IMG/VR virus record: IMGVR_UViG_3300009610_000050
Span: 1 to 41,914 of that record
From: a virus
DNA length: 41,914 nt
Strand: one strand, 5' to 3'
The stretch's first letter is position 1, and each line of letters starts with the position of its first letter. The notes beneath the pieces are model-generated. The model searched no databases. It was not told where the DNA came from and saw only the letters and a list, made by a program, of their open reading frames with translations. The translations under genes were made by a program, and so were the position numbers. Positions 477-24,967 of this stretch are shown here, one piece after another.

Positions 477-483
477 GGCACCT

Positions 484-924: not shown

Positions 925-932
925 CTCACACA
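918..932. promoter_or_regulatory. Palindrome copy 1 (TGTTTGACTCACACA)
   Basis: One mismatch. It contains the stop TGA of the 484-924 gene and precedes the next Shine-Dalgarno site. Confidence 0.75.
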
Positions 933-950
933 AGACAAGGGAGATGACGA

Positions 951-1634: not shown

Positions 1635-1641
1635 GTCAGTC

Positions 1642-2325: not shown

Positions 2326-2328
2326 CCT

Positions 2329-2343
2329 TGTGTGAGTCAAACA
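2329..2343. promoter_or_regulatory. Palindrome copy 2 (TGTGTGAGTCAAACA)
   Basis: One mismatch. It covers the GTG start and ends just before ATG 2344 of the nozzle-like gene. Confidence 0.75.
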
Positions 2344-4125
2344 ATGAACGTCTCGTTGTTCAACGCGCCCCCTCCTAAGAAGCTTGCCAAGAGCAAGTTG
2401 GAAGAAATCGTGTTGCGTGGCTTCGGTGGCGGCTGGAATGTCGTTGACGCAGACACGAACATGGATGCGAAGTACCAGCCGGAGTTGCTGAACCTCCACC
2501 GGACCCCTGCCGGTGCGCAGCATCTCCGGTTTGGTACTAAGCTTTTTTCATACACACATACAGTGTGTACAGGGAATATCATTGACATAGTGTATTTCAA
2601 CAACAGGCTCATTGTTGTTACGTCAACAGGACAGATTGCTAGCGTTGATAACAATGGCAATCCATTCGTTCTGTGGACACCAACGATTGCAGCAGCTTTG
2701 CCCGGTGCTCCGGGTGGTTGGAGTGCAACCACGCAGGTTGATTTTGTTCCTTGGAAAGACCAATTGATTATCCATAACGGAGTTGATAAACCGATTATCA
2801 TTGGACCTACATATGTCCCGAAGTATTTAGCTGACCTTGCATCAGGAAGTAACGTCAATGTTCCGATTGGTAAGTTCGGTTGCATTGCATCGAATTATCA
2901 TTGCGTCGCTGGCCTTCCTGCATCACTAACGACTGTGTATATCAGTTCGAAAGGTACGGCAGGGACATTTCCCGGTGAAGCGCCTCCGAATGACGCGATC
3001 AGCATCGACGTGGGTGCATACGCTCCGTCAGGCGCACCTGAAATTCTCGGCATTGCAGGGTATCGACAGTACCTAATTGTATTCTTCCGTGGGCAGTCGC
3101 TTATCGTGACGCTTGGAGAATACAATACTGCTACGCCTCCTGCACACGTTCCTCGCTTCGTTGATGAAATGCCTCAGTTTGGATTGGTCAATCATCGTTG
3201 TATGGCGACGATTGAGAACGACTTGCGTTTCTCTGGCTATGATGGCATGGCAAGTGCAAAGCGCAATCTGTTCTCTGGTAATATTGACAGTCGGTTCCTC
3301 AGTTCGCTTATCGAACCTGCGTGGCGGTCGGGCTTGCCTCCTGTTCCGATTTCACAACCGTATATGGTACACAATCCAATCGAGCATTGTACGTATCTGT
3401 TCACGAACGATGCCGTTGGGACAACGTATGTGTACCAAGCCAATGAGCAATTGAAATACGAGTCATGGACTCGTTATGAAGGTACAGGACTTCGTTGTGT
3501 TGCGGGGTGCAAGTCGTTCTTAGGTCGGGTGTTTCTAGCAGGTCATGTCAATGGTCGGCAGAACATCTATCAGATGGGGAATGATATCTTTCCCGGCGAA
3601 CAGTACCTTGGTGATCTTCTCAATCACTGGACGAAGTTTTGGGCGAATGCCATGAATTTCGCTGTTGGTGACATGGTTCTGGACTCGGTACTGAACAAAT
3701 CGTTCAAGTGCAACATCGCGCATCAAAGCGCATTGGCACCAGCAACATTCGCACAAGATCGTGCAGCGAACCCTGCGTTCTGGACAGAATATCTTGGCGA
3801 GAACGTCCCATTCACGTTTGAGTTGCCGTGGATCGATGGTCGCTCGCCAATGCGTTTGAAGCAGTTGCGTTTTATTTCGATTGACACACGAGGTACGGCT
3901 GCGTTCACAGTGACAGCGTTCGTGGAGTTCAAAGGTACGCCAGCACTGACAGCGCAGTTTGTCGGCAACGATGCATTAGACGGCATCTTGTCCAACGATC
4001 CACAGTTGTATGGCTTCCCTCTGAAGTTCAAGACTGTGAAAATTCGTGTAACAGGTAGTACGAAGGAGCAATTGACGTTCGCTGGCCTTCGGTATCTGTT
4101 TTCAAAGGGGAGGTTCAGGCGGTGA
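2332..4125 (+). CDS. Tail nozzle / stabilisation-type protein (597 aa)
   Basis: This is a long beta-rich protein. It begins after a short leader with LRGFGGGWNVVDADTNM and AKYQPELLNLHRTPAGAQHLRFG, a pattern shared with podovirus nozzle/hub proteins (P22 gp10 and T7 gp12 roles), where the N-terminus reads 'GGxN..D....l....aPel.N.....G....R.G'. Blade-like repeats follow (IIDIVYFNNRLIVVTSTGQI, YRQYLIVFFRGQSLIVT). It would extend the tail tube below the adaptor. The start is uncertain: GTG 2332 or ATG 2344, neither with a good Shine-Dalgarno site. A palindrome copy covers 2329-2343, so the first codons (SQT) come from it. Confidence 0.6.
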   Translation: MSQTMNVSLFNAPPPKKLAKSKLEEIVLRGFGGGWNVVDADTNMDAKYQPELLNLHRTPAGAQHLRFGTKLFSYTHTVCTGNIIDIVYFNNRLIVVTSTGQIASVDNNGNPFVLWTPTIAAALPGAPGGWSATTQVDFVPWKDQLIIHNGVDKPIIIGPTYVPKYLADLASGSNVNVPIGKFGCIASNYHCVAGLPASLTTVYISSKGTAGTFPGEAPPNDAISIDVGAYAPSGAPEILGIAGYRQYLIVFFRGQSLIVTLGEYNTATPPAHVPRFVDEMPQFGLVNHRCMATIENDLRFSGYDGMASAKRNLFSGNIDSRFLSSLIEPAWRSGLPPVPISQPYMVHNPIEHCTYLFTNDAVGTTYVYQANEQLKYESWTRYEGTGLRCVAGCKSFLGRVFLAGHVNGRQNIYQMGNDIFPGEQYLGDLLNHWTKFWANAMNFAVGDMVLDSVLNKSFKCNIAHQSALAPATFAQDRAANPAFWTEYLGENVPFTFELPWIDGRSPMRLKQLRFISIDTRGTAAFTVTAFVEFKGTPALTAQFVGNDALDGILSNDPQLYGFPLKFKTVKIRVTGSTKEQLTFAGLRYLFSKGRFRR

Positions 4126-4667
4126 GTTTGAGTCAAACAGAGAATACTGGTAGCAACCGTCAAGTTACGACTGTGCGCAAGTACAGGCGTGAAGACATTC
4201 CGACCATCCGTGGTAAGGTAATGATTGAAGTGCCGAAGCTCCCTCATTATCAAGGCATCAAAGTCGTCGCGGAACGTGTGGACCAGCTATTAGAGGATGG
4301 GCTCAAAAGTGAAGATCGTTTTATGGCCCGCGTACTCGTCACTCCCAATGGCGATATTGTTGGTGGTGTTTGTGGCTATTGCGTTACTCAGCTTCTGTCT
4401 TGGGACAAGCTGACAGGGGATATATTCCTCTACATCGATCCGGCTTGGCGCAGCTTGCCTAACGTTCTCAAGCTCATGTTCGCGTATCGTGATTGGGCCA
4501 TCGCAACAGGCGCAACGATCATCAGTGCGACTCAAACAGGTGGCTTCAAGCAGGACACACTCGGTAAGCTCCTGCAACGTTACGGTGAGTATGAGCCTGT
4601 CGGCACGATTTATTACTACAAACCACGCAACCCTGAAGTCGCAGAGATGATGGGGACACGTCAATGA
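4122..4667 (+). CDS. GNAT-like acyltransferase-fold protein of the tail module
   Basis: GTG 4122 overlaps the previous stop (GTGA) and has GGGGAGG 8 bases upstream. The 181-residue protein has the GNAT order: early strand VTTVRKYRREDIPTI, a helical part, strands FMARVLVTPNGDIVGGVCGYCV, GDIFLYIDPAWRSLPNVLKLMF (strand then acceptor-loop helix), then TIISATQTGGF and a terminal YEPVGTIYYYK strand. A strict Q/R-x-x-G-x-G/A acetyl-CoA loop is not clear, so catalysis is unproven. GNAT-fold proteins occur among podovirus tail genes, with unknown substrates. Residues SLSQT are encoded by a palindrome copy. Confidence 0.6.
   Translation: MSLSQTENTGSNRQVTTVRKYRREDIPTIRGKVMIEVPKLPHYQGIKVVAERVDQLLEDGLKSEDRFMARVLVTPNGDIVGGVCGYCVTQLLSWDKLTGDIFLYIDPAWRSLPNVLKLMFAYRDWAIATGATIISATQTGGFKQDTLGKLLQRYGEYEPVGTIYYYKPRNPEVAEMMGTRQ
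4125..4139. promoter_or_regulatory. Palindrome copy 3 (AGTTTGAGTCAAACA)
   Basis: One mismatch at the outer base. Inside the first codons of the GNAT-like gene (SLSQT). Confidence 0.75.
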
Positions 4668-5878
4668 CTGCTGCACAAGATTACTTAAAAGCTATCGGGT
4701 GGCAAGGAACTGAGGAAGAGTTCTATCGCAGCAAGGGCTTGTTGCCTGAGGCTCCGAAACCGAAGCCTTTTGATTACCAAGGTTATTGGGACCCTGAGTA
4801 TTACCTTGGACACAATCCGGACGTCAAAGCTGCTGGTGTTGATCCGCTTGGTCATTACAATGAATTTGGGTGGCATGAAGGACGCGATCCTTCATCGCTA
4901 TTCGATACCAGTGATTATCTCAGTCAGTACAGCGACGTTGCTGCTGCGGGTGTCAATCCATTAGAGCATTATCTTAACTTCGGTATGAAGGAGTACCGCA
5001 ATCCGAAGTTGTTCACTCCTACTGACCAAACACCAATTACTCCGGGCGGAGGCACACCTACAGTACCGCCTCCACAACCTCCGCCCCCGCCAGCACCCCC
5101 GTCGCGTGGTGACTTGACGACAGAAGCCCGTGGAGGCATCCGTGGATACTTCATGGGTAAGGGTGCGAACCCGGACAAGTACAATCAACAGATCATGGAT
5201 AGCATCGCGTCACGTCTCGCAGGGATCACTAACGAACATCTAGGCGAGTCTGGATTGTTCTCAGGTCTTGGTGAAGGCTTGTACGATGAATTGGCTGGTG
5301 AATATCGTAACACAGCCAAATCAGCGTTTGATGCTGTCAATTCCAGCTATCAGAACCCATTCGGGACAACGTTTGACGACAATCTAATCAATACGATCCT
5401 TGGTGAACAACGCGCCGGTGCCGATACGTATGTGAACAATGCGCTTGCTCGTGGACTGACAGACGAAGCCGGTGCAGGATTAGCACGCGCCGATTTGGAT
5501 CGTCAGCAAACGTTAGGGTCCAGTAAATTGAATACCCTTGGCGAGACATTGATCGGTGGTGGTAACACAGCATTTGGTCAAAAACAGACCAGTCGTCGCA
5601 ACGCCTTAGGAAACATTGGACTCGACGCTTCATACGATACAAGCGCGCCTGACATGGACACTGTAGGTAATGAGTTCATGTTGAGCCTTGGTAAAGACCT
5701 TCGCAAAAATGCTGGTGGACCGGGAGTTGTGTTCAGTACCGCGAACCTACCCGGCATTGGCAATCTCGGATCGGGAGCATTCTTATCAAACAAGACACCA
5801 TACGCAAATACTATTCAAGGCGGTGGTGCTTCGCGTGGAACTGAATACGATCCGACAAAAGAAAATGTCTTGTTCTAG
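4664..5878 (+). CDS. Virion protein with two YLxxNPDV-type repeats
   Basis: The ATGA overlap fixes the start. Three regions are visible in 404 residues. Residues about 47-80 and 85-117 are two copies of a repeat of about 36 residues (YLGHNPDVKAAGVDPLGHY and YLSQYSDVAAAGVNPLEHY), a repeat also found in secreted or surface proteins of alphaproteobacteria. A Pro-rich linker follows at about 124-148. A C-terminal domain (about 150-370) resembles that of the next gene (EQRAGADTYVNNALARGLTD...ADLDRQ). I infer a virion or internal protein that may contact the host surface. The stop TAG overlaps a palindrome copy. Confidence 0.65.
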   Translation: MTAAQDYLKAIGWQGTEEEFYRSKGLLPEAPKPKPFDYQGYWDPEYYLGHNPDVKAAGVDPLGHYNEFGWHEGRDPSSLFDTSDYLSQYSDVAAAGVNPLEHYLNFGMKEYRNPKLFTPTDQTPITPGGGTPTVPPPQPPPPPAPPSRGDLTTEARGGIRGYFMGKGANPDKYNQQIMDSIASRLAGITNEHLGESGLFSGLGEGLYDELAGEYRNTAKSAFDAVNSSYQNPFGTTFDDNLINTILGEQRAGADTYVNNALARGLTDEAGAGLARADLDRQQTLGSSKLNTLGETLIGGGNTAFGQKQTSRRNALGNIGLDASYDTSAPDMDTVGNEFMLSLGKDLRKNAGGPGVVFSTANLPGIGNLGSGAFLSNKTPYANTIQGGGASRGTEYDPTKENVLF

Positions 5879-5891
5879 TTTGACTCAAACA
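5877..5891. promoter_or_regulatory. Palindrome copy 4 (AGTTTGACTCAAACA)
   Basis: One mismatch. It shares bases with the stop TAG at 5876-5878 and runs into AAGGAG. Confidence 0.75.
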
Positions 5892-5902
5892 AGGAGAGTG
5901 AA

Positions 5903-6817
5903 ATGTCCGCACCCTCAATGCCTCCAGACAATTCCGCTCAGGTTGAGGCTCAGAGACAAGCCGCTGCCAAAGAAGCGCGTGATGCCGAAGATCGTAAGGC
6001 TGCTGCTCGGAAGGAGGAACTACTCGGTTTGCGTAGTTCTGCGCAGACAGGTGGTCGTGCCTCGGCCCAAGACTATTTCCGTCAGCAAGGACTCGATCCT
6101 GCACGACACAGTTCCGACATTGAAGGCAAGCTCAACTCGATCATGTCCGGTGTTGCCCCGGACGATCCCAATCCGGGTGGATACTTCAAAGACATTGGCG
6201 CCAGTGTGTATGGTGACGTTGAGTCCGGTCAACGCTCAAAGGCAGCGCGCGATTTGGATACGCTGTTCGCCCCTGACTTCGAGATGCGCCGACTTGGTTG
6301 GACAGTGGACGATCCGTACCTCGCAGGTGCAGAGGCAGAACAACGTGCATCGGCCGATGACATTATCAAGCGCATGCTTGATCGTGGCGTCATTACCGAT
6401 ACGGGCTACGCTGCGGCTCAGGCAGACCTTGACAGACAAGGTGCAGGCGTCAAGTCACGCCTTAATGAAATCGGAACCGGATTGCTCGGAACTGGTCAGC
6501 AAAGCCTCCGCGATGTTGCAAATCGTGGACGACAAAGTGCTGCGAACCTTCGGGTTGACCAGCCGTTCAATGCTGGTGATTTCGGCTCGGAGGCTGATCG
6601 CTTGACGAACGAGTTCCTCTCGACACTCGGGACGAACATTCGCTCTCGCATCACTGGTAATCTGTTCGACACTGCTGGCCTTGGTACGCTTGCAGGTGCC
6701 GCACAAGGCGCGCAGAATACACCGTTCGATCCGGGTGCGCTTGCCGGAACGCCGACTGATGATCGTGTCGATGACGAGGAAGATGACACGCAGAATAAGC
6801 CCGCCGCAATCTTCTGA
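5903..6817 (+). CDS. Virion protein paralogous to the preceding gene's C-terminal domain
   Basis: ATG 5903 has AAGGAGAG upstream, just after a palindrome copy. The N-terminus is a charged Ala-rich helix (AQVEAQRQAAAKEARDAEDRKAAARKEE is one continuous amphipathic stretch, probably coiled coil). The remainder matches the upstream protein domain: EQRASADDIIKRMLDRGVITD...AQADLDRQGAGVKSRLNEIGTGLLGTG against EQRAGADTYVNNALARGLTD...ARADLDRQ...LNTLGETLIGGG, then LTNEFLSTLG against VGNEFMLSLG. The two genes therefore arose by duplication and later gained different N-termini. A structural or ejected internal protein is likely. Confidence 0.65.
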   Translation: MSAPSMPPDNSAQVEAQRQAAAKEARDAEDRKAAARKEELLGLRSSAQTGGRASAQDYFRQQGLDPARHSSDIEGKLNSIMSGVAPDDPNPGGYFKDIGASVYGDVESGQRSKAARDLDTLFAPDFEMRRLGWTVDDPYLAGAEAEQRASADDIIKRMLDRGVITDTGYAAAQADLDRQGAGVKSRLNEIGTGLLGTGQQSLRDVANRGRQSAANLRVDQPFNAGDFGSEADRLTNEFLSTLGTNIRSRITGNLFDTAGLGTLAGAAQGAQNTPFDPGALAGTPTDDRVDDEEDDTQNKPAAIF

Positions 6818-6831
6818 GTTAGGAGCATGAG

Positions 6832-7848
6832 ATGGCGGAAATGATCGGTGGTATCCTTGGAGCCGGTGCGAGCCTCGCCGGGGCTGCGCTATCCGCACAG
6901 GCTCAGCAAACTGCGAACATCATCAACTGGATGAATTTGCAGTTCCAGAAACGCAACGCGGACAAGCAGTTTCGCTTGTCCACGGCTGCGCGGAGTGATG
7001 CGTATGGCAACAAGCAAAGTTACGATGACCTCCTTGATGAATGGAAGCTTGCGCTCACTCCAACACAGGAGAAGCTTACCAAGGCAGGCGAAGCGGAACA
7101 ACTCCGCTCAGTTACAGAGGATGCTGCACGCAATCGAGCCATTCGCGTGCAGCAACGTGAGCGTGGTATCGAAGCAGGCAAAGACTACAATCGCGTCTTG
7201 GCTCAGTGGCGGTATGGTGGACCAAAGTCCGAACTATCGATCCGCGATGAATTGACTGATCTACTCGCCGGTGTCGAACGAGACAAGCAACGCTCAAAGA
7301 ACACTGAGATGGTGACGGCTGCGATGCGTGAAGGACGCGGTGCAGATGCTGCTGCTATTCGTAAGGCCACGTCCGATGCCGCAGGCGGTACGTTAGCGTC
7401 GAACATGCTCCAAGCGAAGACGCAAGCTGCGCAGGAGTATGCTGCAAGATCGAAGATGCATTCGGAGTCCACACTACCAGTCCTAGCTGAGTTGCAGAAA
7501 CTCATGGACCTTGGTGGTGATATGCCTGTTAAGTTCTCTGACACTCCAGACAAGTTGGCCGCACTACAGCAACAGCAGTTCACAGGGATGCAACAAGCGT
7601 TGACCGCAGGAGGTTCTGCAATCGGAGGAGCCTTCAAGAACCTTGCTGAGTCATCAGGCAAGTCACCTGACTTCAGCGGTATCGCCAAAGCATTGAGTGG
7701 CATTGGTGGTAAAGGTGGAGGCAAGCAACAACAACAACAGCAGTACGGTGATGAATACGATCAACCTGCGTACAGTGTGATGCAGAACAACTACGCCCCT
7801 GTCGATGATGATAGGTGGACGAACAGTTACAACGCGGATTTTGACTAA
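6832..7848 (+). CDS. Probable internal virion protein (338 aa)
   Basis: GGAGCATGAG lies upstream of ATG 6832. Residues 1-25 are small and hydrophobic (MIGGILGAGASLAGAALSAQAQ), followed by long charged helices (NLQFQKRNADKQFRLSTAARSDAY; VTEDAARNRAIRVQQRERGIEAGKDYNR) and a Gly/Gln-rich tail (GGKGGGKQQQQQQ). A glycine-zipper-like N-terminus plus long helices is common in podovirus internal or ejection proteins. The stop overlaps the next start by one base (TAATG). Confidence 0.6.
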   Translation: MAEMIGGILGAGASLAGAALSAQAQQTANIINWMNLQFQKRNADKQFRLSTAARSDAYGNKQSYDDLLDEWKLALTPTQEKLTKAGEAEQLRSVTEDAARNRAIRVQQRERGIEAGKDYNRVLAQWRYGGPKSELSIRDELTDLLAGVERDKQRSKNTEMVTAAMREGRGADAAAIRKATSDAAGGTLASNMLQAKTQAAQEYAARSKMHSESTLPVLAELQKLMDLGGDMPVKFSDTPDKLAALQQQQFTGMQQALTAGGSAIGGAFKNLAESSGKSPDFSGIAKALSGIGGKGGGKQQQQQQYGDEYDQPAYSVMQNNYAPVDDDRWTNSYNADFD

Positions 7849-8273
7849 TGCCCGGCATCGATAACCCTACCATCGCCGCTGTCGTTGCACAGCTTGCACG
7901 CGGATCGAAGTCTCCTGTCCGTGATGGTGTCATCAGTACAGCCGTGCAACCGTATACGTATGACCGGCATGGAGGGAATTTCGAGGCCGTTCCGGGACCA
8001 ACTAGAATGGATCAGACACATCCATCTAGCGCACCCGGAAGGCGCGCACCCGGACCTCAAGTACCGCTGATGGCCGAGCGTCCGGGTGCGCCGTCTGGCA
8101 CAAAGCCGGGACCGATGGAGGGTCGTGACTTTGGACCTGACCGTTTGAGTCACACAGGCTCGGAGAAGGGTAACATGCCGGACCCCGAAGCCATCTTGGA
8201 CATGCTCATGACAATGGGCTTGCCTCCACAAGAGATACAACAGATTTTGATGGAGATGGGTTATGGCCGTTAA
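7848..8273 (+). CDS. Small proline/glycine-rich virion-module protein (141 aa)
   Basis: The start overlaps the previous stop. The protein is Pro/Gly/Arg-rich and mostly disordered in its middle (SSAPGRRAPGPQVPLMAERPGAP), with short helices at each end. The C-terminus DPEAILDMLMTMGLPPQEIQQILMEM is an amphipathic Met-rich helix. No family is recognised. A weak palindrome copy encodes part of DRLSHTG. Probably an internal or assembly protein by context. Confidence 0.6.
   Translation: MPGIDNPTIAAVVAQLARGSKSPVRDGVISTAVQPYTYDRHGGNFEAVPGPTRMDQTHPSSAPGRRAPGPQVPLMAERPGAPSGTKPGPMEGRDFGPDRLSHTGSEKGNMPDPEAILDMLMTMGLPPQEIQQILMEMGYGR
8142..8156. promoter_or_regulatory. Palindrome copy 5 (CGTTTGAGTCACACA)
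   Basis: Two mismatches; intragenic (7848-8273 gene). Confidence 0.5.
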
Positions 8274-8661
8274 TCCAATTCAATTGGTGCTGCAACAGAT
8301 GATGCAGCAAGCGACGCAGAACCCGCAAATGCTTATGCAACTGGTATCGACACAGCCAGTGCAATCAATTTTAGAAACGTTGTTGTCTCCACAGCAACTA
8401 AAGAATGAAACAACATCGTTCTCAGGCTATCAGAACGCAACGCCTATGAGTCCGGCGTTAGGCGGTGGATCACCATATCCAATCGGAAGCGAAGACGACC
8501 CCGATCATATGAACGCTGCGTTGGCTAATGAACTCATGGACGATAAGCAGCGCATGGCACCTCATATGAAGAAGCCGTATTTTGATATTGAAGAACAACG
8601 GAACAAGAACGAAGAAGAATATCCCGTTGATATGGACCGTGGCTTCTACCCCGGCGTTTAA
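8263..8661 (+). CDS. Small Met/Gln-rich virion-module protein (132 aa)
   Basis: The start overlaps the preceding gene by 11 bases. The N-terminus VNPIQLVLQQMMQQATQ matches the next gene's GNPIQDVLQMLMQQGGG, so these two small proteins share an N-terminal helix. The rest is polar and acidic (DIEEQRNKNEEEYPVDMDRG). Function unknown; possibly a chaperone-like or internal virion component. Confidence 0.6.
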   Translation: MAVNPIQLVLQQMMQQATQNPQMLMQLVSTQPVQSILETLLSPQQLKNETTSFSGYQNATPMSPALGGGSPYPIGSEDDPDHMNAALANELMDDKQRMAPHMKKPYFDIEEQRNKNEEEYPVDMDRGFYPGV

Positions 8662-8684
8662 TCGACAACAGGAGGCGTAATCCA

Positions 8685-9281
8685 ATGCCCGGTAATCCAA
8701 TACAGGACGTGCTTCAGATGCTCATGCAACAAGGAGGTGGAGGCATGCCCGGTGGCGCAGGAATGCCTCCCGGTGCAATGCCTCCTGGTGGTGGTAACAT
8801 TCCAATGATGCAAGGTGGACCACAGCAGGCTGAGATTGCACCGCTCAGTCCGCAGTCACAAGGAATGGCGCAAGGTGGTGAACCTCCTCCGACTGGTGAC
8901 TTCTTGCCTCCGCAGATGCCCATGCCTCAAGGCGAGCCTCCGATGGAAGGCATTGAAGGTATGATGGACGATCCTCGCCGTGCCGAAACCGAAGGCGAAC
9001 TCGAAGACGTCCGCTCGCAAATGCAAGGTGCATCTACTGAAGACGATGATTACGAATGGCAAGGCGACGAGACTCCGACTGCAATGGACATGGAATACAT
9101 GAAAGAAAATCCAACTGATAGTGTCTTGCATGAATTCTACACACGGTTCCCTAAATACATGATGGAACTGATCCTCTCTGAAGGAGGGAACCCGCGTCAG
9201 TCTCCTGACCAGTACGCGATGGACGACGAAGAGTTTGAAAACCTACAAAGTGATCGATCGACGATGATCGACGAAAGGTAA
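8685..9281 (+). CDS. Met/Gly/Pro-rich acidic protein (198 aa)
   Basis: AGGAGG lies 10 bases upstream of ATG 8685. Residues 1-18 (NPIQDVLQMLMQQ) match the previous protein. Residues 19-90 are low-complexity GGMPGGAGMPPGAMPPG repeats. The C-terminal half is strongly acidic (EGELEDVRSQM; EDDDYEWQGDETP). Disordered, acidic and Met-rich proteins before the large virion protein may be packaged or assist its folding, but this is inference only. Confidence 0.6.
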   Translation: MPGNPIQDVLQMLMQQGGGGMPGGAGMPPGAMPPGGGNIPMMQGGPQQAEIAPLSPQSQGMAQGGEPPPTGDFLPPQMPMPQGEPPMEGIEGMMDDPRRAETEGELEDVRSQMQGASTEDDDYEWQGDETPTAMDMEYMKENPTDSVLHEFYTRFPKYMMELILSEGGNPRQSPDQYAMDDEEFENLQSDRSTMIDER

Positions 9282-14700: not shown

Positions 14701-14912
14701 ACGTTGTAAATCTCTTGCGTTGCTCTCCAATGCACGGCGCCGTCCACGCGGAAACGTTGGACGGCGCCTTCAGCACGTAACGACTCCAAATAATTCGTAA
14801 CCTCTGGCGACTCCACATGATTGTGAACGAGCCGCGAAACCACTGTTTGACTCAAACCAAACATACCAGCCGTTATTAAATTCCTTACAATCGTTTCCTG
14901 CCAGTGTGTCAC
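14694..14912 (-). CDS. Small winged-helix-like protein (72 aa)
   Basis: ATG 14912 overlaps the downstream end of the polymerase gene (ATGA). The layout is helix (WQETIVRNLITAGMFGL), helix (SQTVVSRLVHNHV), helix (EVTNYLESLRAEGAV) and a strand/wing (QRFRVDGAVHWRAT), as in winged-helix DNA-binding domains. The family is a frequent phage hypothetical. It closes the leftward cluster and is bracketed by two palindrome copies (14686 and 14844), one inside it encoding GLSQT. A regulatory role is possible but unproven. Confidence 0.65.
   Translation of the reverse strand: MTHWQETIVRNLITAGMFGLSQTVVSRLVHNHVESPEVTNYLESLRAEGAVQRFRVDGAVHWRATQEIYNVV
14844..14858. promoter_or_regulatory. Palindrome copy 11 (TGTTTGACTCAAACC)
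   Basis: One mismatch; inside the winged-helix gene. Confidence 0.7.
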
Positions 14913-17404
14913 AGTTCAACGTCCTTCATATGTGACCAACGGTGGAAGCCTTTCTTATCCTCAACAAATTCACCCTTTTGTTTCTCTGCATCCCATTCAA
15001 ACCGTGTGGGATACGACTGCTTCAATTCAGCAATGATACTAACAGGGACCGCAGGATTATTCCATGCGTCCTGTATCATTATAGCTTGCTCAGCATATTT
15101 TTTCATGATAGCTAATGCTGTCTTAATGCTCTTTCCGGGAGCAGCAATAGCAACGAGGTTATCATGAACATCGAGACAGATACGGGCATCGAGGGGCCAC
15201 TTGTCATCGGACTCACTCTGATACCAAACTTGGACAACTTTATCACCGATCGTACTCTGCGCATAGAAAGCAATGATGGAGTCCATCACGTCATCGTCAA
15301 GACGCTGGATCACTTTGAGCCTCCGCCCGAAGGCATTGAACAAAACCCTGTCCCGGCGGAAGGTGATTTCCTCTTGCTTCCACCAACGCCCAAGCTCGGG
15401 AGTCGTTCGGTGGTACAATATGAATGCGCGGGACGCCTCATGGTAGGGAAGTTTTGTAACATCCGCAAGAGTTTGCCTCTCCATACGGTAGTTGAGTCCG
15501 TGCCTGCATCGTTTGGCAACATAACGTATTGTCGGCTGAAAGTTTTCGTCCCAATCCTTAGTCGGCACCTTCTCATACGGGACATTGAACATCTCCGCAG
15601 CAAGTGCGCGATGAGTATCATATGTTGGGTCGGTTCGCATCCGATTAAACTGTTCCTTCCACTTAGGAATATTCGCACGGTAAGCCACGACGACTGCTTC
15701 AGCTTGTTTCAAATCGAAATACGCCAACTCCATGCCCGGATCAGCGACGTACATAGATCGCGCACGTTGCGGCTGATTTTGCATGTTCATACCCTGACCA
15801 TCAATCGTCTCTGATGATGACAAACGACCGGGTGCGCGTGACACGCCATACTGTTTCCAGTCACAGCGCATCCTATCATCTTCGCCAAGCTTAGCCGTAG
15901 CGAATGTACTAAAGAACTTTGCCTCACCTGACCATTGATTGACTGCTGCAATTATCTCCTTGCTCAACGGGGACGTGTTGTCATGCTTGAGCATGTTCTC
16001 ACGGTTCTTCCTATCTGTGGAAGTTCCCTTACCGTTGAGCTTCAATACATCAAAATATAGTTCCTGCATCTGCTTCGGACTGCCGGGATTGGGAAAGTAT
16101 TCCGGATCACCAGTAATCTCTTGAACTAACCTATGAAAGTTAGCCAAGTGCTTCTCAACGTCTTCACCGATCTGTTTAATCAAATGCTCTTTAATCTCCA
16201 AGTCAACAGCCATACCATGAACGGTTGCTTCGGCCACATGCTGTTGAGCACGCATCACATGGTCAAAAAAGAACTTATCCATTCCAGAGTCGCGCAGTTC
16301 CTTATCCATCTTCTGCTGCGACGCAATCATGAGAGCAACGTCTTTGCAATTGTAGACCCAAAAGTCGTCTATGTTACCACCTTCTTTCCACGACTCGCCA
16401 TCGTCTTTGTAGAATGGGTGCGTGGTATATTGCGAAACGATGAAAGCAAGATTATGCGGAAGTTGGGGATATAAAACGTGATGCGCAAGTAGCGTGTCGA
16501 ACCACGTCGGAATTTTGATACCGTCGTGCGTCCAGCACCAATAGATTTCGTGCCCACCGTTTTGGACGATAACCTTGTTTGACTCACACAAGTTTTGAAT
16601 TGCCAACAACAGTTCTGCTTCTTGTCCAACGGTGAACCTATTTTTATCCATGTCTCTGAAGTTGATGCACATAGCTCGGTGTGGATCATTGCCAAGACCA
16701 TAGCAGTACGTTTCTCGTATGTGTTCCACATCAAGGCCCACTGGTTTACCTGCCTTTTTGAGATCAGCAATAAAGGCAAGCGCGTTACGGAACGTCGGGT
16801 TGATGATGGCATCGACTTTATGCTCCTTGAATACGTTCCTCGCAACCAAGTCTAGCTTCTTACAGTCCATGAGGAAGACAGGTTCCATCTTCAACTCACG
16901 CTGCGCATAAGCAGGATTGAATGTGATGACAAGCTTACCTTTATGCTCGTTAGGCAATACAGTATCCAATACAGAACCACGCCATTTCGTAATGCCTTGC
17001 TTACCAGCTAAAGCTTCGAGGGCAAAGTTTCCCATGACAAACACTGTTCGCAGATTTGGCAGTTGGGCAAGCTCCCACTTGACCATCCCAATCCATTTAT
17101 TAAGTTCGTCTCGATGGACGGCATGTTTCTCGTTTCCCTTTGCACTAAGACTAATCTGCCGCTTAACCACATTAGTAGTATACACGTTGGCTCGATGGAG
17201 GGAATACGGTCTAAGGCTATTCCATAGTAGTGTTCCAGCCCCTCCAATAAACGGTCGGCCATGACGCACTTCCTGTTCACCCGGACCTTCCCCGACAATC
17301 GCAATAGTTGCATTGAGTGGACCCTCCGATATGACGTCAACGTCAAGGTTCATCTGTTCAGCTTGTAGACGGAACTGTTCATCAAAGTAATCACGATCTT
17401 GCAT
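14909..17404 (-). CDS. Uracil-DNA glycosylase / family A DNA polymerase fusion
   Basis: The start ATG 17404 is chosen because AAGGAGG lies 9 bases upstream; it overlaps the kinase gene by 14 bases. The protein has 831 residues. At about 35-190 lies a uracil-DNA glycosylase-like domain (VGEGPGEQEVRHGRPFIGGAG, later TFNPAYAQRE). At about 223-365 lies a 3'-5' exonuclease (GLDVE, the QNGGHE segment, YNCKD as Exo III). At about 395-831 lies the polymerase I core: motif A FDLKQAE (D564, E569), motif B R627-K631-H635-G636-Y639, and motif C VHDN. Position 635 is His where E. coli Pol I has Phe762, and motif C has HDN rather than HDE. It replicates the phage genome. The glycosylase domain lacks the Cys residues of Fe-S family 4 enzymes, so activity on uracil is uncertain. 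SPO1 polymerase has a comparable N-terminal fusion. Confidence 0.9.
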   Translation of the reverse strand: MQDRDYFDEQFRLQAEQMNLDVDVISEGPLNATIAIVGEGPGEQEVRHGRPFIGGAGTLLWNSLRPYSLHRANVYTTNVVKRQISLSAKGNEKHAVHRDELNKWIGMVKWELAQLPNLRTVFVMGNFALEALAGKQGITKWRGSVLDTVLPNEHKGKLVITFNPAYAQRELKMEPVFLMDCKKLDLVARNVFKEHKVDAIINPTFRNALAFIADLKKAGKPVGLDVEHIRETYCYGLGNDPHRAMCINFRDMDKNRFTVGQEAELLLAIQNLCESNKVIVQNGGHEIYWCWTHDGIKIPTWFDTLLAHHVLYPQLPHNLAFIVSQYTTHPFYKDDGESWKEGGNIDDFWVYNCKDVALMIASQQKMDKELRDSGMDKFFFDHVMRAQQHVAEATVHGMAVDLEIKEHLIKQIGEDVEKHLANFHRLVQEITGDPEYFPNPGSPKQMQELYFDVLKLNGKGTSTDRKNRENMLKHDNTSPLSKEIIAAVNQWSGEAKFFSTFATAKLGEDDRMRCDWKQYGVSRAPGRLSSSETIDGQGMNMQNQPQRARSMYVADPGMELAYFDLKQAEAVVVAYRANIPKWKEQFNRMRTDPTYDTHRALAAEMFNVPYEKVPTKDWDENFQPTIRYVAKRCRHGLNYRMERQTLADVTKLPYHEASRAFILYHRTTPELGRWWKQEEITFRRDRVLFNAFGRRLKVIQRLDDDVMDSIIAFYAQSTIGDKVVQVWYQSESDDKWPLDARICLDVHDNLVAIAAPGKSIKTALAIMKKYAEQAIMIQDAWNNPAVPVSIIAELKQSYPTRFEWDAEKQKGEFVEDKKGFHRWSHMKDVEL
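16576..16590. promoter_or_regulatory. Palindrome copy 12 (TGTTTGACTCACACA)
   Basis: One mismatch; inside the exonuclease part of the polymerase gene (CESN). Confidence 0.7.
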
Positions 17405-17933
17405 TGGCAAGAACCTCCTTGTTAATGTGTCCTGTGATCCGATCCGCTTGAATGCCAAGATACCGAATGTCATTGGCATTGATAACAGTATAGTCCGGTT
17501 TTGATATCGGTGTAAAGTCTTTATCCTCCTGCCCACGGATCATTCTGACAAGACTAATAGGGTCGCCTGACAGGCGTAGGACTTCAACATCTTCAGGGAA
17601 CACTGCATCGTCCACAATGACGATCTTCGGTATAGGGTTCATCCCTAACACACGGAACTGCAACCACTTGCCTAATACATCTGGACCGTAGAGTGCTCGG
17701 AGATGCACCCTTAGTTGACGCAACGCATCGACCGCTGACCTACCATTCAACACGCCACGCGGTCTATCACTTGCCAGCGTCGTCCACTTCGCAGCCAAAG
17801 CAGCACAGAAGAAATGCTTCAGCGGCGAATGAAACTCAGCTTGATGGCTACCGATCAATCGCTTCTGTATGAGCCGTGCGAGCGTTGATCTGCCCGACTT
17901 CGGTGGCCCGTTGATTATGATGTAGTGAGTCAC
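17391..17933 (-). CDS. Deoxynucleoside monophosphate kinase-like P-loop protein
   Basis: The start overlaps the zinc-ribbon gene stop (ATGA). The 180-residue protein begins MTHYIIINGPPKSGRSTLAR, a P-loop (residues 9-17) of the small nucleotide/adenylate-kinase type. A later VIVDDAVFPEDVEVLR resembles the Walker B strand and the acid that follows, and LSGDPISLVRMIRGQ is a candidate lid or LID-like arginine segment. Phage dNMP kinases feed the polymerase encoded next. The substrate is not determinable. Confidence 0.7.
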   Translation of the reverse strand: MTHYIIINGPPKSGRSTLARLIQKRLIGSHQAEFHSPLKHFFCAALAAKWTTLASDRPRGVLNGRSAVDALRQLRVHLRALYGPDVLGKWLQFRVLGMNPIPKIVIVDDAVFPEDVEVLRLSGDPISLVRMIRGQEDKDFTPISKPDYTVINANDIRYLGIQADRITGHINKEVLANARS

Positions 17934-18851: not shown

Positions 18852-20093
18852 TCAATCCTTCTTTCTCAGGCTCATTCCCATTGCGAACCTATCCGTTATC
18901 AGGATCACTCGCGTCTTAGCTCTTGTGATAGCCGTGTACAAGTTACGCCTACTCAACAGAAAATACTGTGGCCTGTTGATACAGTACACGACCGTATCAA
19001 ACTCAGACCCTTGACTCTTGTGCGTTGTGATTGCGTAGCCCAACTCGATCTGCCTACGCGGATCGTAGTTCACCCAATGCCCATACATACTGTTGAAATA
19101 CTTCAGCCGTGGTGGGATGGTAACGGCTCTATTACCTGCGAGCAAACCTAGCTCACCGCTCTCGTCATCGAGCCAATCGATATGACCAATCTCACCATTG
19201 AACAACGCGAGGTTGTAATCATTTTTGATCCACAGATACTTGTCATTCCTCCGTACCGCTAACGGCGCTTCCTTGTTCCCGAACCGATCTAGCCTTAGCA
19301 ACGGACCCTTGGGATTGAACTTCATTTGCAAGCTTGGATTGACACGCATCGTACCATTGTTGCCTTTGCGCATCGGCATTATGATCTGATGGTTCAAGTC
19401 AGCAAACTCAGACGATGAGAAATCCAATAACTGGTCAATAGGTTTGTCTGTATAGATAATCTCGAACCGCTTGTTCCGTTGCGGGAGCTTTCCTTTCAAG
19501 ATCAACAATGCATTACTCACAATGTCATCCGTCGATCGAAAGTTGTATGTCAATGTCACACATGGATAAGACGTCAACACGTCGATGAACGGCGGAGGCA
19601 TCCCGGAGTTATCCTCGACAGGTGCCAACTGTTGATTGTCACCAAACATTCTGATGACAGCATCTTTCTTCATCGCGTCCTGCAAGAAGTCATACAACTC
19701 AGAACTAAGCATCGAGGCTTCGTCAATGAGAATGACCCTTACCTCTAACGGATTATCTCTGTTATGTCTTGGCATACCGGGGATAGGAGGGTCCTTCGGA
19801 TCAATAGGATCATCCGGCGCAGGGAACCTCAACAGCCTATGAACCGTTACAGCTTCAATACCGGATAGTTCCGTGATACGTTTCGCCGCTCTACCTGTAG
19901 GCGCTGCCAACACAACACTCAGGCCCATGTCGTTTAGCTCTTTGAACACCCGACCTAATACCAATGTCTTGCCTGTACCAGCGCCTCCAGTTACGCCTAC
20001 GACTCGCTCACTCAAATCACAACACAGATCAATCGCATTCTCTTGTTCTTGACTAAGCCTCTTCGGTCCTACAATCGTGTTTGACTCAAACAT
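18852..20093 (-). CDS. RecD/Dda-like SF1 DNA helicase
   Basis: The 413-residue protein has Walker A GGAGTGKT (residues 36-43), motif Ia LAAPTGRAAKR, motif II ILIDEAS (about 121-127), motif III MFGDNQQLAPV, motif IV TYNFRS, and the C-terminal UvrD-type block GYAITTHKSQGSEFDTVVY and LYTAITRAKTRVIL. This is the SF1B 5'-3' helicase set. It probably unwinds DNA for the phage polymerase or drives recombination. Start ATG 20093 has ACGGAGT upstream. The start codon is fused with a perfect palindrome copy, so the protein begins MFESN and a protein bound there would cover the initiation region in DNA. Confidence 0.9.
   Translation of the reverse strand: MFESNTIVGPKRLSQEQENAIDLCCDLSERVVGVTGGAGTGKTLVLGRVFKELNDMGLSVVLAAPTGRAAKRITELSGIEAVTVHRLLRFPAPDDPIDPKDPPIPGMPRHNRDNPLEVRVILIDEASMLSSELYDFLQDAMKKDAVIRMFGDNQQLAPVEDNSGMPPPFIDVLTSYPCVTLTYNFRSTDDIVSNALLILKGKLPQRNKRFEIIYTDKPIDQLLDFSSSEFADLNHQIIMPMRKGNNGTMRVNPSLQMKFNPKGPLLRLDRFGNKEAPLAVRRNDKYLWIKNDYNLALFNGEIGHIDWLDDESGELGLLAGNRAVTIPPRLKYFNSMYGHWVNYDPRRQIELGYAITTHKSQGSEFDTVVYCINRPQYFLLSRRNLYTAITRAKTRVILITDRFAMGMSLRKKD
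20078..20092. promoter_or_regulatory. Palindrome copy 14, perfect
   Basis: TGTTTGACTCAAACA; includes the TG of the helicase start codon. Confidence 0.85.
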
Positions 20094-20140: not shown

Positions 20141-20371
20141 TTAACCTTTCGCTACCTTCGAGTGCGTCGCAGCCTTGACCGCCCACATGGCAGCCTTCTC
20201 GTAGTCAGTCATCGCCAAATGACAGAGACGACCGACTTCGTTGTCACTTGTACTGTCACGTATCTCAACGCACATATCGATCAACTCAGCGGACTTCTGC
20301 TTGATTTGATCGACTCTCGTCGTCTTGCTCGGATTGAACTCTGTGCGAACACGATCTTCACCAATGGTCAT
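20141..20371 (-). CDS. Acb2/Tad1-like small helical hairpin protein (anti-defence candidate)
   Basis: The 76-residue protein has a short N-terminus (TEFNPSKTTRVDQIK), a first helix (KSAELIDMCVEIR), a short turn, and a second helix rich in small residues (CHLAMTDYEKAAMWAVKAATH). A 'FNPS...VD.IK...A.LI......A.T..E.AAMWAVKAAT' pattern is widespread in phages, and I believe it belongs to or resembles the Acb2/Tad1 hairpin group, whose members bind cyclic oligonucleotides to block CBASS or gcADPR to block Thoeris. That link is from memory and unproven. AGGAGAAG precedes ATG 20371. It sits next to a Tad2-like gene, which strengthens the idea. Confidence 0.6.
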   Translation of the reverse strand: MTIGEDRVRTEFNPSKTTRVDQIKQKSAELIDMCVEIRDSTSDNEVGRLCHLAMTDYEKAAMWAVKAATHSKVAKG

Positions 20372-20395
20372 GTCTTCTCCTATTGTGGGACTTGT

Positions 20396-20626
20396 TCAGC
20401 TAACAACAAACCAATCCGTGCTCAGCATGTCAGTCTGACTTGCCAACCACGGGACCAACTTGTCATCCACCGTCTTCATGTAGATGTACGGCAGTGACAT
20501 TTTCGAGTTTTCGTCAGGCATTTGAAGCGCGATGTACATATGCTTACCGTTCCAACCGGAACGGGCAACTTTCAAGCCATCACCCTCGTCGTCTCTCATG
20601 CACTCAATTGCTTCACCAAAGGTCAT
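20396..20626 (-). CDS. tad2: Tad2-like (DUF2829) Thoeris anti-defence protein
   Basis: The 76 residues cover the whole DUF2829 pattern: MTFGEAIECM, then VARSGWNGKHMYIAL, then YIYMKTVDDKLVPWLASQ and DMLSTDW. Proteins of this family (Tad2) are small oligomers that trap the gcADPR signal made by Thoeris TIR enzymes; some also bind other cyclic nucleotides. Here an acidic insertion (DDEGDG) precedes the core. The start overlaps the upstream stop (ATGA). The signal it binds cannot be predicted from this reading. Confidence 0.8.
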   Translation of the reverse strand: MTFGEAIECMRDDEGDGLKVARSGWNGKHMYIALQMPDENSKMSLPYIYMKTVDDKLVPWLASQTDMLSTDWFVVS

Positions 20627-20820
20627 GTTGTCTTATCCTGTAGGACTTGCCAAGCTACACTCATAATTGCGACCCTCAGGAAGTCTGCCTGAGGGATACC
20701 AAGCGCCTTCGCCGCACGGTGTACAGTCTTCTTGTCTTCACTTGTCGTGCGGACGATCATTTGTACAGAGCCGGTCTGAGGGTGTTCAGTTAGGTTAACC
20801 GTAACACTCTGAACCGACAT
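20623..20820 (-). CDS. Ribbon-helix-helix-like small protein (65 aa)
   Basis: Residues 18-24 (SVQMIVR) form a probable strand, 27-40 (SEDKKTVHRAAKAL) helix A, and 43-60 (PQADFLRVAIMSVAWQVL) helix B after a G-I-P turn, the RHH order of Arc/MetJ-like DNA-binding dimers. AAGGAGTAAAAA precedes ATG 20820. Being first of the anti-defence trio, it may control it, or it may be one of several candidates for binding the genome-wide palindrome. Confidence 0.6.
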   Translation of the reverse strand: MSVQSVTVNLTEHPQTGSVQMIVRTTSEDKKTVHRAAKALGIPQADFLRVAIMSVAWQVLQDKTT

Positions 20821-20847: not shown

Positions 20848-20871
20848 GGAGGGATGCTTTCGCACCCCTCC
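20848..20871 (-). other. GAAA-loop hairpin between two early genes
   Basis: Read on the minus strand, a 10-bp stem (GGAGGGGTGC / GCATCCCTCC, one G-U pair) closes a GAAA loop. No T run follows, so it is a poor intrinsic terminator and more likely an mRNA processing or stabilising element between the 21430-20921 gene and the gene starting at 20820. Confidence 0.5.
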
Positions 20872-20920: not shown

Positions 20921-21430
20921 CTACCGACGACGCCCACGAGGCGCGGCCGCCGGTTCCGGTTCCGGTTCACGTACCGGAGCCCGTGCAGGAGCCCGATCCG
21001 CAGGTGCCAAGTTGGCAATCTCCGCTCGGGACTCACCTTGATACGAGCCCATACGCACCGTTACCAAAGTCTTACAACCCATCCAATCGTTCGGATTGAT
21101 TGTGGTAATATTCGGATCGAGGCCAAGCGCCGTGTACAGGTTCTTCAGGGCGAAGATCGTCCTGCGATCACGGTTGTCACGCGGAACAAGCTGACGGTTC
21201 CAGAACAGAACCGCACCATCCTCGTACGCTTCGGCCACGTCCGCAGGCAATTCCTCCTGAGGAATGACGAGACGGATGGCCCAATAACGATTTCCCGCCT
21301 GACTTGCTTGGGCCTGCACGTCCTGCACTTCGGCAACGTACTTGCCAGCAGGAACCTCTGGCGGCTTCTCGGCGTCCGCCAAATTTCCCTCCAGTTCGAC
21401 AATGCCGAGGGGTTCGTCGTTTGCAACCAT
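20921..21430 (-). CDS. ssDNA-binding / recombination-associated protein, DUF669-like
   Basis: The 169-residue protein carries VPAGKYVAEVQDVQAQASQAGNRYWAIRLVI near its N-terminus, the typical opening of DUF669-type phage proteins ('G.Y.a.i.......s..g..y..i.f.I'), followed by RRTIFALKNLYTALGLDP. The tail is a disordered Pro/Arg/Ala/Glu stretch ending RGRRR. Next to a Sak4-like ATPase such proteins probably coat ssDNA or assist annealing. ATG 21430 has AAGGAG upstream. Confidence 0.6.
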   Translation of the reverse strand: MVANDEPLGIVELEGNLADAEKPPEVPAGKYVAEVQDVQAQASQAGNRYWAIRLVIPQEELPADVAEAYEDGAVLFWNRQLVPRDNRDRRTIFALKNLYTALGLDPNITTINPNDWMGCKTLVTVRMGSYQGESRAEIANLAPADRAPARAPVREPEPEPAAAPRGRRR

Positions 21431-21496: not shown

Positions 21497-22396
21497 TCAC
21501 TGACCTGACTTCTTGGCACGCGGAATAGCCAACCCCTGACGACCACGGGCTAGCCAATCCTTATGCCAATTCGCAATGGTCATCTGATCCTTATGACTGT
21601 CAGGCAGCGTAGGATCATAGACCAATTCAAACTGAGGAACCTCTTGCGTACTAAACATTCGCGTCTTCATTGGGCGACGGTTCCCATAGTTCCTCACCGT
21701 CAACGTTCTCTTGCTGTTAATCTCACGCAAATTCCATATCTCACTGAGACGCCACGTCATGTTATTGACCAGCTTCCCGCCTAGCTGCACCCCAATGAAG
21801 TCAACAACCTCCACTGACTTACCCCCTTGCATCTCAGTCTTCATCGTAGGATCATCTTCGTGTGCCGTGATGACAATGTTCACGTTATGCTTAGCCGTCA
21901 CACGAAGGAAACCTGTTAACGTTTCCAAGACAATAGCATTCCGGCCGCCATACGCAGCAATTCCGGGTGCTTCCATCGTTGGTACAAACTGATTACCCCT
22001 GCCCAACTTATCACTCACAGCCTTCTGCAACGCACGATATGCTATCGCAGTTGCACTGTCAATAACAACTGTTTCTATGTCATCACGCTCACTCAGTATC
22101 TTGTCTAACCCAAATGGATTATCACTCTGAGCATGTTTAAACAAATCATCGTAACCCAACGCAGATAGGTCAGCAATGATAACGTCCTTCCGCCTACTGA
22201 CTGGTGTCGCTTCGTTATCTCCGAATGAACACCACAACTTGTTGCCGGGTGCTGTAGCTGCCAGCGTTGTCTTACCACTACCTGCTGGCCCCCACAGCAT
22301 GATCGCTGCCCTTGCCGGGGATTGATCGCCTTGCCATGCCTCAACAGGCCCGACTTGTAACCTCTTAAGAGGCACAACATTATTTGACTTTTTCAT
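21497..22396 (-). CDS. Sak4-like RecA-fold recombination ATPase
   Basis: ATG 22396 is preferred because it forms an ATGA overlap with the upstream mini-gene. Of 299 residues, 36-43 are Walker A (GPAGSGKT). A Walker B strand (ETVVIDSATA) and later VNIVITAHEDDP (sensor-like) follow. This order fits the phage AAA_24/Sak4 family, single-strand-annealing or RecA-like recombinases that work with an ssDNA-binding partner, probably the next gene. The C-terminal region has strands around NMTWRLSEIWNLREI. Confidence 0.75.
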   Translation of the reverse strand: MKKSNNVVPLKRLQVGPVEAWQGDQSPARAAIMLWGPAGSGKTTLAATAPGNKLWCSFGDNEATPVSRRKDVIIADLSALGYDDLFKHAQSDNPFGLDKILSERDDIETVVIDSATAIAYRALQKAVSDKLGRGNQFVPTMEAPGIAAYGGRNAIVLETLTGFLRVTAKHNVNIVITAHEDDPTMKTEMQGGKSVEVVDFIGVQLGGKLVNNMTWRLSEIWNLREINSKRTLTVRNYGNRRPMKTRMFSTQEVPQFELVYDPTLPDSHKDQMTIANWHKDWLARGRQGLAIPRAKKSGQ

Positions 22397-22530
22397 TCGT
22401 TGATTACCTTCTTGCAATACTGACATTCCCAAAACACCGTGTTACCATGAACAATCATTATCTCACCACCACACCCTCCCCACCAACACAGAAACAGTTT
22501 CCTGAGCATAACTGACGGTTTGGCTATCAT
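22393..22530 (-). CDS. Zinc-ribbon mini-protein (45 aa)
   Basis: This short frame is joined to both neighbours by ATGA overlaps (start at 22530, stop at 22393), which is strong support for translation. It encodes LCWWGGCGGEI (C-x4-C) and ECQYCKKVI (C-x2-C), a minimal four-Cys zinc ribbon. It may act as an accessory factor of the Sak4-like ATPase translated next. Function unknown. Confidence 0.7.
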   Translation of the reverse strand: MIAKPSVMLRKLFLCWWGGCGGEIMIVHGNTVFWECQYCKKVINE

Positions 22531-23491: not shown

Positions 23492-23639
23492 TTTCAATCT
23501 CCATCTCTTTGATAAGTATCTTGAACGCTTCGATATCCTCTTTGTCACCACTGGCGAACAGCAACTCAATGGCACTTGCGACCGTTTGCGCCTTTGCGTA
23601 GCCACTACGCTTCTCGAACAACTTCAAAAGATCAAACAT
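23475..23639 (-). CDS. Hypothetical mini-protein (54 aa)
   Basis: GAGGAG lies 7 bases before ATG 23639, which overlaps the nuclease stop by 8 bases; the end overlaps the next start by 17 bases. It encodes a two-helix protein (MFDLLKLFEKRSGYAKAQTV; KEDIEAFKILIKEM). Unknown function. Confidence 0.6.
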   Translation of the reverse strand: MFDLLKLFEKRSGYAKAQTVASAIELLFASGDKEDIEAFKILIKEMEIENANRT

Positions 23640-24642
23640 CGATGACTCCTCTCTCGCTAGGGCTTAGATCGGCCGGAACCATTTCCTGCTCGAACGCGAT
23701 CTTCCTCCCTTCAGGCGTGTCCGTACAGAACGGTATCAACGAACACGGCCTGAAATATCTGTTGCAACTATGCGTGAACCGCGGAGCGTTCTCGTAGTCA
23801 TCAGGCCCAAACGGTTCGTACAGTGTTTGAATGAACCATCTCAGGTCTATGCCCCACTTAGCAATGGCATCGTAATCCCTACTCACCGGGGCAGATACAT
23901 AGTTCTCACCAGTGTTGGCACGCTTGATCTTCACTCCCAACACACGACCGTTCAATACCTGCATACCAAACACAGCCGTACTGCATGCGAGATACCCTGT
24001 GAACTGGTACTTCATATGCAATGCATTGAGGAACGCACTATCGATCCTCGATGCAGTCTTGTTATCTTCCAGCGTTGCTAAGTGCCCTCGATCAATGTCC
24101 ACAACCAAGCCATCGATCGTACCGATGTACCTGATCTTATAACCATCTTCGTACAACAGCACCACATCGAACACCTGTTCAATGCCCACAGGCTTATGCG
24201 GATCATTCACATCAGCCACCCATATCGGGAACTGATCCATTGCTCGCAGTCTCTCGTCCGCATATTCGATAGCAGCTACCTCCATGTTGTTCATGGTCCG
24301 AATGATATCCTTCGGATCATCCTCCCAATTCGCTGTATGCAGAACAAGGAAGCACATGGCTAACAGTTCATCACGTTCATCAAAGCCTCTTGTCTCCTTT
24401 ACCATCCGATCCCACAACTCAGCACCGAATATCCTTGTTGCTGCAACTGCACCATGATCGAATAATCCCTGCCTTCGTATCAACTGCCATATCCGCACCA
24501 TCGCGAATACCTTATGCATCAGTTCCCCGGCTTCTAACGCCATCGAACGGGCTGTACTCGCGTACCTTTTTTGGCCGTGGACTATCCCCCATGTCGGGCA
24601 TGTGCAAAGGTCCTCGATCCGACTGCTCGACCACGGCTTCAA
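23632..24642 (-). CDS. RecB/Cas4-like PD-(D/E)XK nuclease
   Basis: Motifs in order: SSSRIEDLCTCP with an early Cys, ALEAGELMHKVF (conserved His), GTIDGLV (Asp), TLEDNKTA (D-x-K), QFTGY (Q-x3-Y), and a C-terminal Cys group SCNRYFRPCSLIPFC. One early plus three late Cys suggests a Cas4/AddB-type Fe-S cluster. It probably resects DNA for the Sak4/ssDNA-binding pair. The start is uncertain. TTG 24642 has GGAGG 5 bases upstream and begins just before the first motif; ATG 24780 is also in frame. Either way it overlaps the upstream gene out of phase, by at least 131 bases. Confidence 0.75.
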   Translation of the reverse strand: MKPWSSSRIEDLCTCPTWGIVHGQKRYASTARSMALEAGELMHKVFAMVRIWQLIRRQGLFDHGAVAATRIFGAELWDRMVKETRGFDERDELLAMCFLVLHTANWEDDPKDIIRTMNNMEVAAIEYADERLRAMDQFPIWVADVNDPHKPVGIEQVFDVVLLYEDGYKIRYIGTIDGLVVDIDRGHLATLEDNKTASRIDSAFLNALHMKYQFTGYLACSTAVFGMQVLNGRVLGVKIKRANTGENYVSAPVSRDYDAIAKWGIDLRWFIQTLYEPFGPDDYENAPRFTHSCNRYFRPCSLIPFCTDTPEGRKIAFEQEMVPADLSPSERGVIDV

Positions 24643-24967
24643 ATGAGCCTCCGAGTCCGTCGTCCGATGGATGCTCACGAGGCGTCTCGGGTTTCCGTAC
24701 ACTAAGGATTTCTCGCTCGATAGCTGCTTGCTCGACTTCGGCGAGTGTACTGGCTTCGTGCTCGGGACCTTCGTGGGCATTGAGAAATCTCCTTATCTCA
24801 GGGGCTAAGTTGGTAATCACGTTCTGAAAGCGTACGAAATTCGCATGCTCCCCAACGTACTGCTTATAGGCACCGTGCAGAACAAACGTCGCTTCGTACC
24901 GTTCTGCGTCTTCGGCATGCTCGAAGAATGTGCCATCGTCTGCTAAGTATCCTGTCGCTTCTCTCAT
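24512..24967 (-). CDS. Hypothetical early protein (151 aa)
   Basis: ATG 24967 follows ACGGAGAT; a GTG nine codons earlier would start inside a degenerate palindrome. The N-terminal EATGYLADDGTFFEHAEDAERYEATFVLH is a small 'DG..F....EA..YE' phage domain, followed by a helix (VRFQNVITNLAPEIRRFLNAH) and a long disordered acidic tail. The tail is the part that shares DNA with the nuclease N-terminus. Confidence 0.65.
   Translation of the reverse strand: MREATGYLADDGTFFEHAEDAERYEATFVLHGAYKQYVGEHANFVRFQNVITNLAPEIRRFLNAHEGPEHEASTLAEVEQAAIEREILSVRKPETPREHPSDDGLGGSFEAVVEQSDRGPLHMPDMGDSPRPKKVREYSPFDGVRSRGTDA

Follow-up and report, generated by a model that had tools for sequence, protein, structure and literature searches.

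Adjoining genes for a Tad2-like protein and an Acb2-like hairpin protein in a phage replication operon, and the recurrence of their pairing in other virus records

Could two small, adjoining genes of an environmental virus encode a pair of sponges, one for the signals of Thoeris and the other for those of CBASS? Tad2 and Acb2 are both known to act in this way, sequestering such signals without degrading them (as described in PMC12043709). The question is raised by a stretch of 41,914 bases (here called the window) that makes up a whole IMG/VR virus record (50.7% GC), in which no exact terminal repeats were found. A sequence-only reading had pointed to three small ORFs in this window, and all three are present on the minus strand: a gene for a 65-aa RHH-like (TacA1-type) protein (20623-20820), tad2 (20396-20626; 76 aa), and an acb2-like gene (20141-20371; 76 aa). 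The genes are tightly packed, with a 4-nt overlap between the RHH gene and tad2 and a gap of 24 nt between tad2 and acb2, and each is preceded by a Shine-Dalgarno-like sequence (i.e., AGAAGGAG upstream of the RHH gene, AGGAT upstream of tad2, and AGGAGAAG upstream of acb2). Their Pfam matches and their homologues in IMG/VR (hundreds for tad2 and acb2) indicate that these are more than chance ORFs, with weaker evidence for the RHH gene. A megablast search of the region against phage records returned no match.

The three-gene run lies within a phage replication operon on the same strand. Upstream are genes for a DUF669 protein that is likely to bind single-stranded DNA (20921-21430; PF05037, 22.2 bits; cutoff, 21), a Sak4-like recombinase (21497-22432), and a PD-(D/E)XK exonuclease (23632-24780). 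Downstream of the tad2/acb2 pair are genes for a RecD/Dda-like SF1 helicase (18852-20093; Pfam AAA_30/UvrD_C_2; phrog_4412 and phrog_325), a dNMP-kinase-like protein (17391-17933), and a family A DNA polymerase (14909-17536). A stem-loop with a GAAA loop was predicted on the minus strand directly ahead of the RHH gene (20848-20871; 10-pair stem; z-score of the region, -3.0), and it is the sole copy in the window. Because it has no T-run, it is not a typical terminator; it is possibly an RNA stabiliser or a processing site.

The proposal that the 20396-20626 product is a DUF2829/Tad2 protein was borne out by sequence and by model. The protein scored 84.8 bits against PF11195 (cutoff, 25), and in a sequence search against solved structures it matched SptTad2, HgmTad2/AcrIIA7, and SPO1 Tad2 (E values of about 1e-13 to 1e-12) as well as Myroides Tad2 (3e-9). 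The AlphaFold model (pLDDT, 92) had SPO1 Tad2 (8smf) as its top PDB match (E value, 1.2e-7; TM score, 0.83), and all 24 PDB matches with E values of 0.001 or less were Tad2-family entries, making the predicted fold a firm one. The same fold is found in the other SPO1 Tad2 entries (8sme and 8smg) and in Myroides Tad2 (8v3e and 9eib), which also have in common with the window protein the conserved RxGWNGK and SQTDxLxxDW stretches. Among Tad2 relatives, the WNGKxM and SQTDxLxxDW stretches are well conserved. The available text of PMC12043709 describes the loops that line the gcADPR pocket of Tad2, and we infer that these two stretches correspond to them.

Which signals might this Tad2 hold? HgmTad2/AcrIIA7 and SptTad2 (8kbi-8kbm and 8wjd) have the same family and fold but carry a long insertion that holds a cyclic-dinucleotide pocket and to which the binding of these ligands has been assigned (PMC12043709, available text). 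The window Tad2 is a short form without this insertion: its core from WNGK to SQTD comprises 42 residues, and its middle loop is shorter than even that of SPO1 Tad2, which does not bind 3'3'-cGAMP according to the available text of PMC11722364. Given the missing insertion and this property of SPO1 Tad2, the ligand of the window protein would be of the ADP-ribose type rather than a CBASS dinucleotide.

The neighboring 20141-20371 product is, as judged from its sequence, a member of the Acb2/Tad1 hairpin family. It scored 43.7 bits against PF24729 (cutoff, 27), and a search of the window record identified it as the single gene of this type. In the AlphaFold model (pLDDT, 89), helices span residues 3-7, 19-39, and 44-74, i.e., a short N-terminal helix followed by two long antiparallel helices, which is the shape described for the Acb2 protomer (PMC10419184). 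When a profile of the hairpin was compared with the PDB, the best Acb2 match was T4 Acb2/Vs.4 (E value, 0.014), and hhalign of the profile with Vs.4 of a T4-like phage (identical in this region) gave an E value of 1.3e-5 over 43 columns. The match runs along the second helix, where T4 Vs.4 and the window protein have in common the conserved pattern T...A.MWA..A. The profile gave an insignificant result against the single sequence of PaMx33 Acb2, and a direct phmmer search of the protein against the PDB yielded nothing useful. Regarding structure, Foldseek returned no matches with E values of 0.001 or less, and VIA-align placed T4 Vs.4 at a Z score of 6.3 (rmsd, 2.1 over 60 residues), a value tied by unrelated helical proteins. 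A predicted fold unrelated to Tad1/Acb2, which would have counted against the family call, was not seen, although comparison of so short and simple a hairpin is not discriminating by itself, and the model speaks for the shape of the hairpin only.

The resemblance to Acb2/Tad1 that had been noted earlier therefore holds at the family level, through the PF24729 match, the two-helix model, and the weak match to Vs.4 in the same region; it does not extend to Tad1. The N-terminal beta domain of Tad1 takes part in its gcADPR pocket. The window protein has the hairpin domain (PF24729) in common with Tad1, but it is predicted to be all-helical within its 76 aa and lacks that beta domain, which ruled out a Tad1 identity and makes the protein Acb2-like. 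In this respect, it is a hairpin-only member of the group, like PaMx33 Acb2 and T4 Vs.4 (7uq2).

Compared with the experimentally tested Acb2 proteins (PaMx33 Acb2 and T4 Vs.4), the window hairpin is divergent (12 to 19% identity). The GY(R/K) motif of the tested proteins is absent at the aligned place; the window protein has FNPS in its stead, out of alignment with that motif, so a ligand pocket should not be assumed for it. The invariant K24 of the window hairpin aligns with K26 of PaMx33 Acb2, and R48 is also invariant; its aromatic residue, F12, is out of alignment with Y11 of PaMx33 Acb2. We take Y11 and K26 to be ligand-contact residues in the PaMx33 protein.

Hairpins of this type form a clade that has the motif FNPS...V..IK and, in the C-terminal helix, an AAMWAVKAAT stretch that hardly varies; one pattern search found 381 loci of this clade in IMG/VR. 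FNPS hairpins also occur in the genomes of Bacteroidota and Alphaproteobacteria and in Flavobacterium phages; no Tad2 above the cutoff was found in the bacterial genomes that hold them. With hundreds of members on virus contigs, the clade, in which we found no solved or experimentally tested protein, offers a large set of candidate sponges, the ligand of which could differ from known Acb2 ligands. We consider it unlikely, however, that only Tad2 acts on the signals named above, as a Thoeris sponge, while the FNPS hairpin binds a different nucleotide signal (of type III CRISPR, of Pycsar, or another ADP-ribose) or a nucleotide without an immune role. The size of the clade and the strong conservation of its C-terminal helix are in keeping with such a separate role, as are the missing GY motif and the finding of no clear member among solved structures in PDB sequence and profile searches. 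In favor of an Acb2-like role, the hairpin passes the curated Acb2/Tad1 cutoff, its profile matches T4 Acb2 along the second helix, and Acb2 of the PaMx33 type occupies the same place beside Tad2 in other phages.

As a separate observation, seven contigs (L130-L136), all from the same assembly of an uncultured member of the Rhodobacteraceae, each carry an Acb2-like hairpin gene. The match length and score are identical in all seven, so a multicopy prophage or mobile element may carry the gene.

To what extent is the pairing of the two genes peculiar to the window? Virus records were chosen for Tad2 only, and each whole record was then searched for PF24729. A hairpin above the cutoff was present in 13 of 127 such records (4 of 40, 7 of 39, and 2 of 48), and tad2 and acb2 were directly adjacent in 8 records (L150, L163, L183, L207, L213, L221, L263, and L284). 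Among the first 11 co-carrying records, 6 had adjacent genes, compared with 0.76 expected from random placement within 200 bases (P of about 1.5e-5, under a simple model that treats the records as independent). Acb2 hairpins were also the commonest direct neighbor family of Tad2 (148 loci) in a survey that pooled the FNPS and GYR types, caught the L183 hairpin by profile, and excluded overlapping ORFs; the next-ranked families seem to derive from related phages.

Adjacency could arise without a functional link if small accessory genes gather at tolerant sites, in which case each protein might still be a sponge. Both kinds of genes are small and mobile, their order varies, and the majority of Tad2 genes and of FNPS Acb2 genes are unpaired. 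Direct adjacency is, however, far above that of random placement, and the Acb2 hairpins rank ahead of families that apparently reflect phage relatedness, so that we regard this explanation as unlikely. The acb2 gene comes first in L150, L207, and L073, and tad2 comes first in the window and in the other six of the eight records listed above. The paired Acb2 proteins range from the FNPS type to the PaMx33 type (12 to 30% identity across types), while the paired Tad2 proteins are mostly 50 to 70% identical to one another. Divergent Acb2 partners, similar Tad2 partners, and both gene orders suggest that the pairing was assembled repeatedly and not inherited as one cassette.

For the FNPS clade, pairing is a minority state, because only 1 of 79 records chosen for an FNPS hairpin had a Tad2 gene (adjacent to the hairpin gene in that record). 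None of the Tad2 proteins in adjacent pairs had the long HgmTad2-type insertion, in a sample biased to short Tad2 proteins; a restriction of the pairing to insertion-free Tad2 proteins is plausible, but we do not claim it from such a sample. No plasmid record was found with both genes in one place. Phage CBW1004C-Prop1 was considered as a carrier of both genes and rejected, as a search of its whole record gave no PF24729 match.

The pair also occurs in a cultured phage. Xanthomonas virus PB119 has adjoining PF11195 (74.5 bits) and PF24729 (65.0 bits) genes (UZV39869-UZV39868), in the same order as in the window. Unlike the FNPS-type hairpin of the window, the Acb2 of PB119 is of the PaMx33 type, with 51% identity to PaMx33 Acb2 itself; the PB119 Tad2 diverges further, at 28% identity to the window Tad2. 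This phage makes the pair testable in culture.

With the family memberships, the gene order, and the recurrent pairing observed here, we consider it likely, from homology to characterized sponges, that the two products complement each other as signal sponges, one against Thoeris and the other against CBASS. Expressed from the replication operon, both proteins would be made early in infection. Tad2, probably as a tetramer, would hold Thoeris signals, i.e., either glycocyclic ADP-ribose or a relative of it (e.g., His-ADPR), and the Acb2-like protein, probably as a hexamer, would hold the cyclic di- and trinucleotides of CBASS. The TIR and CD-NTase enzymes of the host would still produce their signals, but these, captured on the way to the effectors, would fail to make the cell abort the infection. 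Alone, neither protein would span both classes of signals, because Tad2 lacks the dinucleotide insertion and the hairpin lacks the N-terminal domain of Tad1; jointly, the two would cover approximately the range of one Tad1.

Each of the two families was already known, and the modest new point is their recurrent pairing in mostly distant phages. Phages with multiple anti-signal proteins have been described, such as T4 (Acb1 and Acb2) and SPO1 (Tad2 and Acb4) (PMC11722364, available text). Within the available text of PMC12043709, PMC12657218, and PMC11722364, we saw no report of Tad2 and Acb2 genes side by side, a limited body of literature that is not proof of novelty. A broader proposal is that Tad2 and an Acb2 hairpin constitute a recurrent "broad-spectrum sponge cassette," a repeatedly assembled two-protein counterpart of Tad1, and that the FNPS hairpins make up a separate lineage of sponges that prefer a signal of their own; we offer it tentatively, as possible but somewhat short of probable. 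If the pairing reflects selection, hosts with Thoeris and CBASS together would have been met often enough for both sponges to be kept. On the same condition, uncharacterized small genes adjoining Tad2 or Acb2 genes would be a promising source of new anti-signal proteins.

The first gene of the run had been read as encoding an RHH protein that may regulate the other two. The RHH assignment stands in part: the 20623-20820 product does match PF08681 (TacA1), but weakly, at 20.2 bits, under the curated cutoff of 21. Two homologues on other virus contigs pass this cutoff (24.5 bits in L016 and 26.1 bits in L017). These TacA1-type genes (L016, 5574-5858; L017, 3143-3427) lie about 350 to 360 nt downstream of FNPS Acb2 genes and constitute a second association of RHH and Acb2 genes. 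A candidate role is that of a repressor that times the expression of tad2 and acb2, as Aca proteins do in anti-CRISPR operons. The leading position of the gene, its 4-nt overlap with tad2, and the proximity of its relatives to Acb2 genes in L016 and L017 would agree with this role. We nevertheless judge it unlikely, in view of the subthreshold match, the finding of no sigma-70-like promoter upstream of the gene, and the detection of no relative of the window RHH protein in the other Tad2-Acb2 pair loci.

Elsewhere in the window, the forward-strand region at 394-9281, a likely structural module, seems far from known families: none of eight ORFs tested there matched PHROGs (including those of 597 aa at 2332-4125 and 404 aa at 4664-5878), and none of the three of these that were compared with Pfam as well gave a match. 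The polymerase gene of the replication operon encodes 875 aa with a 3'-5' exonuclease domain and a family A polymerase domain (PF00476, 94.7 bits), and the same frame carries an N-terminal domain of the uracil-DNA-glycosylase superfamily (PF03167, 67.4 bits; residues 70-215).
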